A DNA stretch of 64,000 nt from a virus. A model generated the notes under the pieces. That model had not been told where the DNA came from and did no database searches. It saw nothing but the letters and a program-made list of their open reading frames with translations. Each line of letters starts with the position of its first letter. The first letter of the stretch is position 1. The translations under genes and the position numbers were made by a program. Of this stretch, positions 1,799-10,955 are shown one piece after another. The stretch lies in IMG/VR virus record IMGVR_UViG_3300049434_000028, positions 1 to 64,000 of that record; one strand, 5' to 3'.

Positions 1799-2407
1799 CT
1801 ACCGTTCCGTGTATTGGCGCAGGTCTTTCATGACGTCTAGCTGGTAGCCCAAGAGGTTGCTGTCGTCCGGCCAGACTAGGGCCGCAGCCATCTTCGCGAG
1901 GCCATAGGCGTCAGCTTCGTTATCGTCGGCGAACGAGACCCCCCACTGCTTGTAGACGTTGAGCTTCATGTCGCTCTTCGCGCTGCCCGACCCAGAGCCC
2001 TTGCCGGAGACGAACTTCTTCAGCTTCGTGGTGGCCACGATCGTCGGGTAGCAAACCGGGCTGGCCAGGTTCGGGTGCAGCCGCAGCGCCACCTTGACCA
2101 CCGCGCCCAACTCCCCCGCGATCTCGCGGCCGAACTTGCTGTTGGGTGCGTAGCCCTCCATGCACACATGCACGACAGGGCCAGGGTGCTCCAGGATCTC
2201 CGTCACCCACGATGCGATCGTCACCAGCCGATCGACGCCGGTCCCGAACTTCTTCGGCTCGAAGCCGCGCCGGTAGACCTCGTACTTGCCGACCCGATCC
2301 ATACCGCAGATCGCGAAGCCGCTGTAGGACTGGTCGATCCCGAACACCACGCCGCCGGATGCGGTAACCGCGGGCGCAGCACGTAGGCGGCGCTTGATCG
2401 TGGTCAC
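1799..2407 (-). CDS. RuvC-like Holliday junction resolvase
   Basis: GTG start at 2407, overlapping the previous stop (GTGA). About 202 residues with an RNase H-fold resolvase pattern: GGVVFGIDQSYSGFAI (first catalytic Asp), VCMEGYAPNSKFGREIAGELG (catalytic Glu) and a C-terminal DDNEADAYGLAKMA (acidic pair). The central Lys/Gly-rich segment (LKKFVSGKGSGSGSAKSD) is typical of phage RuvC-type enzymes. It would resolve branched recombination or replication intermediates before packaging, alongside RecA and the nuclease at 5156-5461. The N-terminus VTTIKRRLRAA resembles that of two neighbouring genes. Confidence 0.85.
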   Translation of the reverse strand: MTTIKRRLRAAPAVTASGGVVFGIDQSYSGFAICGMDRVGKYEVYRRGFEPKKFGTGVDRLVTIASWVTEILEHPGPVVHVCMEGYAPNSKFGREIAGELGAVVKVALRLHPNLASPVCYPTIVATTKLKKFVSGKGSGSGSAKSDMKLNVYKQWGVSFADDNEADAYGLAKMAAALVWPDDSNLLGYQLDVMKDLRQYTER

Positions 2408-2739
2408 GCTGTCTCCAATACGCCGAGCACGCCTGCGCGCACCGCAGCCTCGTAGTAGGCCTTGGAAGGCTTCCAACATGCAGGAATGGCGTGTAGGTAC
2501 ACGCCTACCTGCGGGTCGAAGGACCAACCCTTCACCGATGAGCAGGTGCAGTACGGCCGGTCCGTGCCAGGGCGCTCGCTGTGCAGGTATGCATCCAGCG
2601 CACGCTTGGCCGCCTCAGGATCCACGCCGAACGTGCCGGGCACCTCAGCAGCCGCCACCGCGTCCTGCATGCGGATCGGCTTCTTCGGACCGGTCGGCTC
2701 CGGCTCTTCCTTCTTCGGCCGTCGCTTGATGACGGTCAC
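2404..2739 (-). CDS. Hypothetical protein with Cys pair, 111 aa
   Basis: GTG start at 2739 overlapping the upstream stop by GTGA. Basic N-terminus (VTVIKRRPKKEEPEPTGPKK), then a helical region and a single CTC motif (RPYCTCSSVKGW) followed by a further Cys at IPACWKPS. The three Cys could bind metal, but the set is incomplete for a standard zinc finger. No family recognised. The first residues match the start of the RuvC-like protein and of the 68-aa protein at 3117-3323. Confidence 0.65.
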   Translation of the reverse strand: MTVIKRRPKKEEPEPTGPKKPIRMQDAVAAAEVPGTFGVDPEAAKRALDAYLHSERPGTDRPYCTCSSVKGWSFDPQVGVYLHAIPACWKPSKAYYEAAVRAGVLGVLETA

Positions 2740-3323: not shown

Positions 3324-3829
3324 GAGCCGCCCGCCCAACGGTTGCTGCGACGCTCCGGCGCCTCCCGATCGACGCGGCGGGTCAGCTCACGGGAGACGAC
3401 GGCCGCGTCTCGCACGAACGCCTCATGCCGAGCCTCCAGCAGCTTGCGGTAGGCGTAGGCGTCGAGCTGCTCCTGCCGGTACGCAACTACGTCCTCGTCC
3501 TCCTCCATGCGGGCCTTGGCCAGGGTGACGCGGTCCTCCTTGCCGCCGGTCCACCCCTTCACTACCGCAATGGCCTTGGCCTTGTCGTAGAGCGTCTCAG
3601 CCGCGCGCTCGTCGATCGCCGCCATCGCCAACTGAGCCCCGGAGTAGTCCGCCCAGCGAGTGAGGAGCACTAGCAGGCTCATCAGCTCGCTGTCGTCCAG
3701 ATCGGTTGGGTCGGCGGGCAATTCGGGTTCGTCGCTCGGTCTCTTGGGCAACGTCAACGACCGCTGCGCGGCGCGTGCTCGTGCGCGCTCCGTTTCCTCT
3801 GCGTGCTTCAACCGTGGGTTCCGAGGCAT
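3320..3829 (-). CDS. Helical hypothetical protein, 169 aa
   Basis: ATG at 3829 (MPRNPRLKHAEE). The product is nearly all helical and strongly charged: a basic, Ala/Arg-rich N-terminal helix, an acidic linker (PADPTDLDDSELMSLL), a helix with LLTRWADYSGAQLAMAAID and a Lys/Glu/Arg-rich coiled-coil-like stretch with AYRQEQLDAYAYRKLLEARH. The N-terminal 78 codons are also read in another frame by the end of the Cas4-like gene. Small terminase or recombination-accessory roles are possible by shape only. Confidence 0.7.
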   Translation of the reverse strand: MPRNPRLKHAEETERARARAAQRSLTLPKRPSDEPELPADPTDLDDSELMSLLVLLTRWADYSGAQLAMAAIDERAAETLYDKAKAIAVVKGWTGGKEDRVTLAKARMEEDEDVVAYRQEQLDAYAYRKLLEARHEAFVRDAAVVSRELTRRVDREAPERRSNRWAGGS

Positions 3830-5150
3830 TGTGATCCTTGTCGTCGAAGCTCTTGCACTTGACGCACAGCTTGTTGCGCCCGTTCTTGCACGACGGCGCC
3901 TCACCGGTCTCCAGTGCGTAGACGACGTCCTTGCAGGTCTCCAATACCTCCGCGATCCACTCCTTGTCCGGCCCGATCGAGAACTCCTTGACCGCCTGCG
4001 TCGGCTTGTACTCGTAGATGAACACGATCTTGTTCACCTCGGGCCAGTCGTACAGCTCGGTCATGCGCTGCCGAAGGTACAGGTAGATGACACCCTGGCG
4101 CAGGTGCGCCGGGAACGGGCGACGCAGGTCCCGGAAGAGCGCCTTGTGATCCAGGAACTTGTACGCCTTGCCCTCGGCGTCGGTGACCTCGCGCGTGTAG
4201 TCGCGCATCGTCTTCGGGGACTCGATGCGCACCGTGCCCTCGCCGATGCTCTTGACCTCCAGCAGGACGGCCGGTGCGCCATCGCGACGGATCTCGCCGT
4301 CGGCGTGACCCATAATCAGATTCGACTCGTCCTCCAACACCACCTCGTCGTACCGCAACGCTGCACGAGGGGCACTGCACAGATTGCACAGCTTGGGCGA
4401 GGTGGTCCACCACTCGTTCTGGCAGACCGTGCAGTAGAACTTCCCCCACAACGTCCCGATATCCCAGAACCACATCTGCCACTTGGCGTGGATCTGGTTG
4501 CCCTCCTCGTAGACGTTGTCCAGCGAGAAGTGCGGCGTCTCCTCGGTGAAGCTCTTGCCAGCACGGACCGCGGAGATGCGCAGGTACGCCGCGCGAGGGC
4601 AGAAGTCGCTCTTGGCCAGCTCGCTAACGTGCAGCAGGTGATGATGGCGGTCGACGCCCTGCGGCTGGCTGAGCAGGTGCTGCTGCACCATCGGGAGCAA
4701 CGTCTGCTGCGCCTTCTTGGTCTCCGCGAACCGGCCGAGCATGCCGACCGCCTTGCGCGGCGCTGGCGCAGCGGCCGTCTTGCGCGCGGCTGCCGTCTTC
4801 TTGGCGTAGCGCTCCACCTTGGCGGTCACGGGCTTCTCCTGTTGACGTGTCCTGATGTTGATCACCGGGGCAAGCGAGGCCTCGTACTCCTCCTTGCGGC
4901 GCTTCTTCTCCTTGTAGCGGTCCCGCTCGCTCATCCCGCCCCAAACGCCGAAGCGTTCGCCGCGCATCAGTGCGTACTCCAAGCATTGCGCACGCCACCG
5001 ACAAACCTCGTGCTTGCCGTCCTCGCCGTTGCAGACCTTCTTCGCCTGGCGAGCCGTGATCTGAGCGGTCCCCTTCTCCGGATAGAACCCGTCACCCGGC
5101 AGATCGCTGCAGTTGGCCCCTTCCCACTCGACCGGGCTGGTCATCTTCAT
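3597..5150 (-). CDS. WhiB-like domain fused to Cas4-like PD-(D/E)XK exonuclease
   Basis: A 517-residue protein starting at ATG 5150. Residues 1-75 form a WhiB-type Fe-S domain with Cys14, Cys40, Cys50 and Cys56 followed by the GVWGG turn (residues 68-72) and a basic tail; Cys40-Cys50 spacing is x9 instead of the usual x2. A basic Ala/Lys linker follows. From about residue 180 a Cas4/RecB-like nuclease starts with VSELAKSDFCPRAAYLR, has the GHADGEI and LLEVKSIG catalytic motifs near residues 280-305, and ends with the CKNGRNKLCVKC cluster near residue 430, the Fe-S ligands of Cas4. The last 78 residues read across the next gene out of frame. Likely role: recombination or end processing with RecA. 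Confidence 0.85.
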   Translation of the reverse strand: MKMTSPVEWEGANCSDLPGDGFYPEKGTAQITARQAKKVCNGEDGKHEVCRWRAQCLEYALMRGERFGVWGGMSERDRYKEKKRRKEEYEASLAPVINIRTRQQEKPVTAKVERYAKKTAAARKTAAAPAPRKAVGMLGRFAETKKAQQTLLPMVQQHLLSQPQGVDRHHHLLHVSELAKSDFCPRAAYLRISAVRAGKSFTEETPHFSLDNVYEEGNQIHAKWQMWFWDIGTLWGKFYCTVCQNEWWTTSPKLCNLCSAPRAALRYDEVVLEDESNLIMGHADGEIRRDGAPAVLLEVKSIGEGTVRIESPKTMRDYTREVTDAEGKAYKFLDHKALFRDLRRPFPAHLRQGVIYLYLRQRMTELYDWPEVNKIVFIYEYKPTQAVKEFSIGPDKEWIAEVLETCKDVVYALETGEAPSCKNGRNKLCVKCKSFDDKDHNASEPTVEARRGNGARTSTRRAAVVDVAQETERRTRIARRPNRSGRQRADEPASAPHSLGGLLRGSVGDGGDRRARG

Positions 5151-5155
5151 GATCG

Positions 5156-5461
5156 TCACATGCCCCGGCTGGCGAGGTAGTCCTCCCGCAGGAGGAGCAC
5201 CCAATGCCGTCCATTGATGTCGATCCCGACCACCGGCTCGCGGCCCTCGGACTGTGCCTCCTTGCGGATCTTGTCCAACCACGCACCTTTGAGCGACAAG
5301 GAGTCGTTGTCGGTGCGCTTGTTCTCGATCAGCAGGTCGTCCGTGCGGACGTCACCCTTGCGGAACGCGCCGTTGCCGGAGCCGGGTGTGACCCGGCCTC
5401 CGTAGTCCTTGGCGTCACGCTTCTCCTGCTCGCGGCTCCGGCGCAGGTTGCGGTCAACCAT
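5156..5461 (-). CDS. PD-(D/E)XK endonuclease, Hjc-like resolvase type
   Basis: A 101-residue protein with the core of phage Hjc/VRR-type nucleases: GGRVTPGSGNGAFRKGDVRT, where the GD Asp is a metal ligand, then LLIENKRT (E-x-K), and LKGAWLDKIRKEA and EPVVGIDINGRHWVLL completing the fold. The size is close to the minimum for this nuclease fold. Set between a hypothetical gene and the Cas4-like nuclease in the recombination block, it likely cuts branched DNA. It coexists with a RuvC-like enzyme at 1799-2407, so the two may have different substrates. Confidence 0.8.
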   Translation of the reverse strand: MVDRNLRRSREQEKRDAKDYGGRVTPGSGNGAFRKGDVRTDDLLIENKRTDNDSLSLKGAWLDKIRKEAQSEGREPVVGIDINGRHWVLLLREDYLASRGM

Positions 5462-5687
5462 GAAAGACCAGCTTCGTCAGTTCCATGTTGGCCAGACCCA
5501 CCGCGGTCAGCGCGGTATCCAGCCAGCTCTGTACTTCCTCGGCTGCATCGGCATCCATGAAGCCGCCGACCTGCCGGTGGTCGTTCTCGTACTGCATGTA
5601 GAGCCCGACGTGGTCCGACCCCTCCGGCTGGTGCAGGTAGAGAGCCGTACCGGCGACCGCCCAACCCTTCCACTGATGCTGCGTCAC
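5454..5687 (-). CDS. Hypothetical protein, 77 aa
   Basis: Start at 5687 in an ATGA-type overlap with the end of recA. Soluble, with two aromatic beta stretches (WKGWAVAGTALYLHQP, HVGLYMQYENDHRQVGGF) and a C-terminal helix (ADAAEEVQSWLDTALTAVG). It is coupled between RecA and the Hjc-like nuclease, so a recombination-accessory role is possible. No family recognised. Confidence 0.6.
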   Translation of the reverse strand: MTQHQWKGWAVAGTALYLHQPEGSDHVGLYMQYENDHRQVGGFMDADAAEEVQSWLDTALTAVGLANMELTKLVFHG

Positions 5688-6781
5688 GTCCGCCGCCGGA
5701 TCTTCTTACGTGCAGGCTCCGGCGGTGCAATCGACTCCACGGTGTCGCCGCGGGCCGCATCCAACACCTCCTTGCGCACACGCGCAAACAGCTCCTCGTC
5801 CTCGCGGATAGCGCTGTAAAAGCCGACCTTGCCGCCGGGGTAGCGCACGTCCTCGTAGCGGTTGCCGTTCCCGCTGCGCTCCACGATGTCGTAGGCGAGC
5901 GAGAGGTTCAGCGTCTCCTTGTAGATGTCGTACGTGCCCGCCTCGATGTCGGCCACGTCGGCGAAGTAGAAGTCGACCACCGCGGGCTGGCCGGGCCGGG
6001 CGCCCTTCATCTTGATCGTCGAGATCTTGATGGCCTGGCCGACCTTCTCCTTCTCGGCGCCGACACCGTCGTACAGCCACTCGTCGCGCCGGACCTCGAC
6101 ACGGCAGTACATCCAGAAGTTCTTGGCCTTCCCGCCGGGCGTCGTGCGGGGATCGCCATGCATGACGCCGATCTTCTCGCGCCACTGGTTGATCAGAATG
6201 CCAACGATCGGCCGGTCGTCGTCCACGAGCGAGCGCTTGGTCGCCTTCGTGGCCTTGCGCATGAACTGGTTGGTGCGCCGTGCACCTGCGCCGGGCGACC
6301 ACTCGTCCATGGCCTTGTTGTCCTCGTCCGCAGGCACCAGGGCGGGCAGGGAGTCGATGACCACCATGTCGCACGCACGGTTGCCAACGAACTCCAGGAC
6401 GGCCTCGTAGGCCACCTCCATGACGTTCTCTTCAATCAAGAACACGCGCGTGTTGTCGACGCCGAGCATCGCGGCGTACTCCTCGTCGTAGCTCTCGGCC
6501 GCGACCCACACGACGCTGAAGCTCGGGTCGGCCTTCTGCGCCGCCGCGATCGTCTTCAGGGTGATGGTGGTCTTGCCGCTGCCCTCGTTGCCGACGATCT
6601 CGCTCCACTGGTTGACCGGCCAGCCGCCGCCAAGCGCGACGTCCAGCGCGAGCGAGCCGGTGGACAGCCGCGGGGGCTTCATGCGCGCCGAGCTGGCCAC
6701 GACGACGGTACCCGCGCCGTGCTTCTTGTTGATCGCCGTCAGGATCGCCTGGGCGTTCTTGCGCGCTTCTTCTGTTGCCAC
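5684..6781 (-). CDS. recA: RecA-like recombinase
   Basis: 365 residues from a GTG start at 6781, with GGAG 7 bases upstream. ATPase core: Walker A GNEGSGKTT near residue 63, the catalytic Glu in VVWVAAESYDEEYA, Walker B DMVVIDSLPALVP near residue 140 and the L2-like segment INQWREKIGVMHGDPRTTPGG. The N-terminal helix is short and the C-terminal acidic tail of cellular RecA is replaced by a basic KKIRRRT, as in phage RecA/UvsX types. It would drive strand exchange in recombination-dependent replication with the nearby nucleases, polymerase and ssDNA-binding-like protein. A CGGACCA leader motif lies at 6793-6799. Confidence 0.93.
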   Translation of the reverse strand: MATEEARKNAQAILTAINKKHGAGTVVVASSARMKPPRLSTGSLALDVALGGGWPVNQWSEIVGNEGSGKTTITLKTIAAAQKADPSFSVVWVAAESYDEEYAAMLGVDNTRVFLIEENVMEVAYEAVLEFVGNRACDMVVIDSLPALVPADEDNKAMDEWSPGAGARRTNQFMRKATKATKRSLVDDDRPIVGILINQWREKIGVMHGDPRTTPGGKAKNFWMYCRVEVRRDEWLYDGVGAEKEKVGQAIKISTIKMKGARPGQPAVVDFYFADVADIEAGTYDIYKETLNLSLAYDIVERSGNGNRYEDVRYPGGKVGFYSAIREDEELFARVRKEVLDAARGDTVESIAPPEPARKKIRRRT

Positions 6782-9699: not shown

Positions 9700-10698
9700 T
9701 TAATCGTCGTCATCCATGGCTGTGCGTGCAACGGCGTTCAGCTCCGCACGCGGCACGTACCGCACGTACTTGTCCTCGGTCACCATCTTGGAGTCGAACG
9801 CGTCCAGCTCGTGGTCCTTGAGCGGGGGGATCCCCCACTCCTCCTTCAGGTCACGCGTGCGCACTACGTCGATGTCGTAGGTGGTCGCGCCCTTGCCACC
9901 CTTCGGCTTGGTCTTGGAAACCGCGTAGTACTCCTTGCTCAGCGGGCCAGTCTTGGCGGCGGCCTTCTTCTCCAGGATCTGCGCGATACCCGGACCGCAC
10001 GCCCACACGAAGAGCTGGGGGTCGGCGTCCTCCTCCAGCAGCAACACGTTGAACGCACCCACCGCCCGCGGAGAGTCGCCCAGCTTGTCGCACAGCGGGC
10101 ACTTGGACTCCAGGCAGGTGTAGCTACGCAACCCCTTGGGCGTCATGATCCAGTGCTGCCCGAAACTCGCGAACGGCTCGTCGTCCAGGAACTTGATCAG
10201 GATCTGGTCGTCGTCCGGCACCTTGAGGTCATTGCTGAAGCTGCCCATGGTCTTTCGCTTCTTGTTGTACGTGTTCCAACCGGCCGAGGACTTCCGCTTG
10301 CGGGGCTCGTCGTCCTCGTCGTCCTCGTCTTCATCCTCGTCGTCTTCGTCATCCTCGTCGTCGTCCCGTGCACGGCGAGCCGGGCGCTTGGGCTCTGCAC
10401 GACCCCGAGAGCGGCTACGTGCCGGGGGCTCGTCCTCTTCGTCATCCTCGTCTTCATCGTCCTCGTCGGCGGCGGCACGGCCGCGACGGCGAGGGGGGTC
10501 CTCGTCCTCGTCGTCGTCCTTGGCGCGAGCACGCCGGGAGGACGCAGGAGCGGGCTCCGCGTCGCGCTCACGACGTCGCCGGGCCCGCGGGGTCTCCTCC
10601 TCGTCGTCGTCATCGTCCTCGACCGCTGGCTTGCGGTAACGGTCGGCGCTGGGTGCCGGACGATCGTCGCGGCTGCGGCGACGTGCGGGGGATGCCAT
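9700..10698 (-). CDS. Putative ssDNA-binding protein with long charged N-terminal region
   Basis: 332 residues from ATG 10698 with GAGGAGAA upstream. Residues about 1-155 are a disordered alternation of Asp/Glu runs and Arg-rich blocks. The folded part starts near 160 (GWNTYNKKRKTMGSFSNDLK), has a CLESKCPLCDKLGD Cys cluster, strand-rich segments (AFNVLLLEEDADPQLFVWAC, KEYYAVSKTKP) and ends in an acidic tail (MDDDD), like SSB/gp32-type proteins that use an acidic C-terminus for partner binding. Fold and position beside polymerase support the call; the sequence is too divergent for certainty. Confidence 0.6.
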   Translation of the reverse strand: MASPARRRSRDDRPAPSADRYRKPAVEDDDDDEEETPRARRRRERDAEPAPASSRRARAKDDDEDEDPPRRRGRAAADEDDEDEDDEEDEPPARSRSRGRAEPKRPARRARDDDEDDEDDEDEDEDDEDDEPRKRKSSAGWNTYNKKRKTMGSFSNDLKVPDDDQILIKFLDDEPFASFGQHWIMTPKGLRSYTCLESKCPLCDKLGDSPRAVGAFNVLLLEEDADPQLFVWACGPGIAQILEKKAAAKTGPLSKEYYAVSKTKPKGGKGATTYDIDVVRTRDLKEEWGIPPLKDHELDAFDSKMVTEDKYVRYVPRAELNAVARTAMDDDD

Positions 10699-10955
10699 CA
10701 AGTTCTCCTCTTCCTGGTCCGTGAACGATGCTCCGTGAAGCTGTCCAACAGGACCGTCTGGTCTGCGGTGGTCAACTCGCGTGCTTCCTTGATCTCTCCG
10801 GCGAGCTGGCGGTCCAGGATCTCCATCACCTTGTCAGTGAGTTCCTGCACCAACTCGTCCACCGGGATGTCGTGCGCCTCCTCATCGGTGTACCCGAGGT
10901 CGCCGTGCTCCAGGGTGACCGTGCACCCGAACTGGAAGTGCTCATATTGGGACAT
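10698..10955 (-). CDS. Hypothetical protein, 85 aa
   Basis: ATG 10955 (MSQYEHFQFG) with AAGGTG upstream. One N-terminal beta hairpin (FQFGCTVTLEHGDLGYTDEE) and two amphipathic helices (VDELVQELTDKVMEILDRQLAGEIKEA), ending in basic residues. It overlaps the start of the ssDNA-binding-like gene in a TGATG, which suggests coupled translation. No family recognised. Confidence 0.65.
   Translation of the reverse strand: MSQYEHFQFGCTVTLEHGDLGYTDEEAHDIPVDELVQELTDKVMEILDRQLAGEIKEARELTTADQTVLLDSFTEHRSRTRKRRT
10715..10721 (-). promoter_or_regulatory. Leader motif CGGACCA
   Basis: TTCACGGACCAGGAAGAGGAGAACTTG-ATG ahead of the ssDNA-binding-like gene. The motif lies inside the C-terminal codons of the upstream 85-aa gene. 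Confidence 0.55.

Follow-up and report, generated by a model that had tools for sequence, protein, structure and literature searches.

A WhiB–Cas4 fusion in the recombination cassette of an actinophage

We analyzed a 64,000-nucleotide stretch of DNA from a large actinobacterial phage (hereafter, the window), the first 64 kb of the 102,797-bp IMG/VR record IMGVR_UViG_3300049434_000028, and focused on an open reading frame (P0001; 3597–5150) that encodes a WhiB domain, a type that contacts the transcription apparatus in bacteria, followed by a Cas4/RecB-type nuclease domain. The ORF, which the first-pass annotation had located correctly without giving a strand, lies on the minus rather than the plus strand, with an ATG at 5150, a stop ending at 3597 and 517 codons before the stop. 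Pfam and PHROG matches support the ORF, and the start is backed by alignment with the WhiB starts of Streptomyces phages (MKLRTxSPRW). Its product is the sole WhiB and the sole phrog_2506 match within the whole 102.8-kb record. The neighbouring genes encode RecA-like, DNA polymerase and resolvase proteins. Directly upstream is a Holliday junction resolvase (5156–5461, minus strand; phrog_2002, E = 1.6 × 10−22, with a weak Hjc match), and profile matches identified a RecA/UvsX-like recombinase in the same module (5684–6781, minus strand). Downstream of the nuclease part lies P0002 (3320–3829, minus strand; 169 aa), whose homologues in related phages are annotated as SSB or DNA-binding protein. 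With a RuvC-like resolvase at 1799–2527 (minus strand) in addition to the phrog_2002/Hjc-like gene, two resolvase types occur in one replication module. A putative SSB at 9700–10701 (minus strand), identified by a weak phrog_15004 match, has acidic and arginine runs in its N-terminal part rather than an acidic C-terminal tail.

Third-position GC content (GC3) is 0.73–1.0 in a single frame from codon 1 to about codon 450, including a Lys/Ala-rich linker (residues 87–136; 4743–4892, minus strand) whose GC3 is as high as that of the flanking parts. In the C-terminal tail (residues 442–517; 3597–3827, minus strand) GC3 falls to 0.40–0.63, and the end of the Cas4 part overlaps P0002 out of frame by ~230 nt (3597–3829). 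This drop and overlap, together with dN/dS above 1 in the matching tail of the sister fusions described below, place the end of the domain part near residue 440; the last ~75 residues are probably not a domain and are shaped by the overlap. Long tails are also borne by the Cas4 genes of four other collected loci (L008, L068, L101 and L132).

The WhiB domain (residues 11–78; 4917–5120, minus strand) matched the Pfam WhiB profile with 48.2 bits against a cut-off of 23.6 (E = 1.6 × 10−12), and C14, C40, C50, C56 and the GVWGG turn (residues 68–72) lie where the first-pass annotation had placed them, in agreement with the Wbl hallmark, which pairs four conserved cysteines with a G[V/I]WGG turn (PMC6282962). 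An AlphaFold2 model of the domain folded alone had a pLDDT of 84 and shows the WhiB fold, all 14 of its Foldseek matches in the PDB being WhiB proteins. By sequence, the closest solved structures were those of Streptomyces venezuelae WhiB with RNA polymerase (8dy7, E = 3 × 10−13; 8dy9, E = 6 × 10−13), and in alignment with that protein the window domain has seven extra residues separating Cys2 from Cys3. These two cysteines usually form a CX2C motif in Wbl proteins (C37/C40 in WhiB1), a feature given as usual and not as definitional (PMC6282962); the window has CX9C. The aromatic residues by which WhiB1 contacts region 4 of the sigma factor (σ4), namely W3, F17, F18 and W60 (PMC10245118), correspond to W9, F22, Y23 and W70. 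The window domain thus resembles class II WhiB/WhiB2 proteins in its four cysteines, its ERF and GVWGG motifs, its predicted fold and its σ4-contact aromatics, and differs from them in being fused to a nuclease, in a Cys2–Cys3 spacing of 9 versus 2 and in a protein length of 517 versus ~80–140 aa.

The C-terminal part (residues 137–441; 3828–4742, minus strand) is identifiable from its sequence as a Cas4/RecB-type exonuclease whose catalytic motifs are intact. It matched the PHROG exonuclease family phrog_2506 over residues 166–432 (E = 9.4 × 10−24) and carries the RecB-type motifs H174, D284 (GHADG), E298-x-K300 and Q352-x3-Y356, whose six named residues are invariant, along with C184 and C429, in a profile of 52 relatives. 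Its cluster-type cysteines, C184 and C421/C429/C432, reproduce the Cas4 pattern of one N-terminal and three C-terminal cysteines (PMC3466216) with the spacing C-x7-C-x2-C. C432 and the four cysteines of an internal CxxC-CxxC ribbon (C240, C243, C255 and C258; 4377–4433, minus strand), a feature recognized by its conservation, are retained in at least 90% of the 52 relatives, whereas C421 is a lineage-specific alternative position of one C-terminal cysteine; unlike the window, the sister fusions keep the usual C-x2-C-x5-C.

In an AlphaFold2 model of the full-length protein, pLDDT was mostly above 90 over residues 165–435 and below 50 in the C-terminal tail. The WhiB part of this model was weak because of a shallow alignment, and the model therefore gives no guide to how the domains pack. 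The closest structural neighbours of the nuclease model were LHK-Exo (Z = 12.3), SSO0001 Cas4 (Z = 11.7) and λ exonuclease (Z = 11.3); its alignment with 4ic1 (Z = 11.7 over 182 residues) is that of a Cas4 fold, and Foldseek also matched it to 8d3l (E = 5.9 × 10−6). The best match in a viral structure library was A0A6J7X4L6 (367 aa). P0001 did not match the CRISPR Cas4 model TIGR00372, and its relatives scored 20.8–34.6 bits against a curated cut-off of 65. The earlier label of Cas4-like nuclease therefore stands in the wide sense, borne out by the RecB motifs, the C-terminal cysteine cluster and the exonuclease profile, but does not extend to CRISPR Cas4. RecB motifs, one N-terminal and three C-terminal cysteines and the fold are shared with phage Cas4-family exonucleases (phrog_2506), Cas4 SSO0001 and AddB-type cluster nucleases, while the internal ribbon, the C-x7-C-x2-C spacing and the N-terminal WhiB domain set the window protein apart from Cas4-family exonucleases. 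Judged from their cysteines, both domains of the fusion are likely to hold Fe-S clusters.

Single-ORF WhiB–Cas4 fusions were present on three further IMG/VR contigs from separate metagenomes (L088, L099 and L123). Among these contigs dN/dS was 0.19–0.26 for the WhiB part and 0.16–0.36 for the linker, values of purifying selection which indicate that the fused frame is maintained. In L088 and L099, which are tighter fusions, the linker is much shorter than in the window. The first-pass annotation had held that separate ORFs in relatives would point to a merged annotation or a sequencing error. Most relatives do encode two ORFs, usually in different frames, and searches turned up no sequence close enough to the window gene to confirm it, both of which are compatible with a sequencing or assembly indel that merged two ORFs in the window contig alone. 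Such an indel is nevertheless highly improbable: GC3 is continuous within one frame, a one-base indel would not create a linker of ~50 residues, and separate ORFs elsewhere are not a sign of an artefact given that three other contigs keep the same architecture under purifying selection. On the GC3 continuity and the sister fusions, we rejected a frameshift artefact. Because both domains score well, GC3 follows one frame and three other contigs carry the fusion, its occurrence goes beyond chance, and we consider it very probable, on sequence evidence, that P0001 is a true two-domain fusion of neighbouring recombination-cassette genes.

Stop-codon readthrough in the unfused relatives was also considered and rejected; in the 18 same-frame pairs the stops are mixed and some are doubled, and a Cas4 start codon follows most of them. 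In six loci (L032, L036, L040, L073, L133 and L134) WhiB and Cas4 share a frame, with one stop and about three codons between them, so that a single substitution would fuse the two genes.

A further reading, compatible with the others, is that besides the full fusion the gene also yields a shorter Cas4 protein, started internally close to where the domains meet. L088 and L099 have strong Shine–Dalgarno-like (SD-like) sequences at codons 93 (−14.2 kcal/mol) and 94 (−10.8), respectively, and the window has AGGAG (4836–4840) followed by an in-frame GTG at codon 108 (4827–4829), a weak candidate spanning 4827–4840 on the minus strand. The predicted SD energy in the window is unremarkable, ~5% of random window positions reach −9.8, and the L088/L099 motif also codes for conserved residues (RRKVNG), all of which makes an internal start unlikely.

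The fusion occupies a conserved cassette with the order Holliday-junction resolvase, WhiB (where present), Cas4 and P0002 homologue, in which the upstream resolvase and the downstream P0002 homologue are nearly universal across the collected loci. Among 154 distinct Cas4 genes, a WhiB gene is adjacent just upstream in 115, fused in 4 and lacking in 35, counts that come from searches seeded with the fusion family and from related sequences that are not independent. Five Streptomyces phages of the BRock group (BRock, GiJojo, Alone3, LuckySocke and pSt2308) carry separate WhiB and Cas4 genes at the same position; their annotated regions have the gene order of the window and their WhiBs share its Cys spacing class, with identities to the window of 32–43% for WhiB and ~35% for Cas4, but the two domains are encoded by ORFs that overlap in different frames and not by one protein. 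As read from gene order, the fusion arose from two adjacent genes of the recombination cassette. In a Cas4 tree of the first 58 representatives, loci lacking WhiB came together in a single group with good support; the fusions fall with the window, itself on a long branch, in a poorly resolved region. The tree calls for two fusion changes, but a single fusion clade was not rejected (p-AU = 0.18), and one or two fusion events both fit. Four of the loci without WhiB (L066, L071, L072 and L064) have a different small ORF between resolvase and Cas4.

The Cys2–Cys3 spacing was 8–14 residues in all 100 readable Cas4-linked WhiBs, 8–9 in the four fused ones, and 2–3 in all 17 unlinked WhiBs from phages and bacteria, a clean split, though among sequences that are not phylogenetically independent. 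The spacing was likewise 2–3 in three GenBank phage WhiBs that were read directly, and a scan of bacterial genomes with the fusion profile returned only a Corynebacterium WhiB locus with the usual Cys spacing and no Cas4. The split marks a distinct phage WhiB subfamily tied to the Cas4 nuclease, to which the N-terminal domain of the fusion belongs. The expanded loop could alter the cluster or σ4 binding. If these domains no longer engaged sigma, WhiB would be an Fe-S accessory to the nuclease, with a structural or redox-responsive role. The loop expansion in all linked WhiBs agrees with this reading, as does the fact that, of 51 linked WhiBs, only 40 showed a Trp before Cys1 and two have Phe for Trp in the turn. 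We think this reading improbable, because the counterparts of the σ4-contact aromatics and the GxWGG turn are kept by all four fused WhiBs. The redox sensing suggested in the first-pass annotation gained no specific support from this analysis, whereas its proposed link between transcription and recombination is consistent with the σ4-contact residues and the recombination cassette.

We propose that the WhiB domain, with its cluster, would bind σ4 of the host's primary sigma factor in the context of RNA polymerase, and that the Cas4 domain would resect DNA ends and so supply the phage RecA-like recombinase with single strands. In that case the fusion, like the ancestral gene pair, would bridge the host's RNA polymerase and the recombination machinery of the phage: either the nuclease would be brought to DNA that is transcribed or carries promoters, or the polymerase to recombining phage DNA. 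Taken as a whole, a genuine fusion with a σ4/RNA polymerase bridge to recombination is the explanation towards which we lean, if only slightly; the bridging mechanism itself, in which we infer cluster, σ4 binding and exonuclease activity alike, is plausible but tentative. More speculatively, the expanded-Cys-loop WhiB subfamily might be a dedicated adaptor coupling host RNA polymerase to phage recombination, with the fusions as its one-chain form. Most relatives use two separate proteins and 35 of the 154 Cas4 genes lack a WhiB partner, which shows that the nuclease can do without the link. Neighbouring genes often share regulation although their products never touch, and the fusion accordingly suggests cooperation without proving it.

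The two domains might instead do separate jobs on one chain: WhiB would regulate transcription or act as a dominant-negative decoy of host WhiB2/WhiA, in the way that WhiBTM4 does for WhiB2, the exonuclease would be independent, and the fusion would fix only dose and timing. WhiBTM4 represses host whiB2 (PMC8612146), the ERF preceding GVWGG in the window is the triplet of class II WhiB2 (PMC6282962), the solved structure that matches best comes from a WhiA/WhiB RNA polymerase complex and is S. venezuelae WhiB, and many phages bear WhiB without this Cas4 alongside. We regard separate jobs as possible but doubtful, since they leave unexplained why a subfamily with its own Cys spacing, absent from the unlinked set, sits beside Cas4.

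To our knowledge, the roles of phage WhiB proteins are mostly unestablished. Through the fusion and the conserved gene pair, one WhiB subfamily is connected with a particular enzyme and pathway, and the fusion makes it possible to study σ4 binding, cluster content and nuclease activity jointly in one protein. Phages are known to couple transcription with DNA replication or recombination, as in T4 late transcription; the bridge, if true, would be an actinophage counterpart of such devices, and the adaptor reading, if true, a new kind of transcription–recombination coupling in actinophages.

In line with the earlier view that the fusion is undescribed, we found none in the literature searched, which lay outside subscription sources and treats phage WhiB and Cas4 separately, and tblastn of the window protein and L088 against 50,697 GenBank phage records returned only two-ORF relatives of the pair. 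One paper, which reports that cluster EK phages have Cas4 and WhiB genes no more than 5 kb apart, mentions no WhiB–Cas4 fusion (PMC8612146). The Ku–Lsr2 fusions of cluster J mycobacteriophages (PMC8612146) likewise join an actinophage host-type regulator domain to a DNA-end protein, but the domains are others and the Lsr2 part binds DNA, not sigma. Fruitloop gp55, a mycobacteriophage protein annotated as WhiB/HNH endonuclease (L239:2426–2824), similarly extends a phage WhiB at its C-terminus by a segment resembling a zinc finger; unlike the window protein, it is 133 aa long, has the usual CX2C and carries a short treble-clef-like finger instead of a full nuclease domain.
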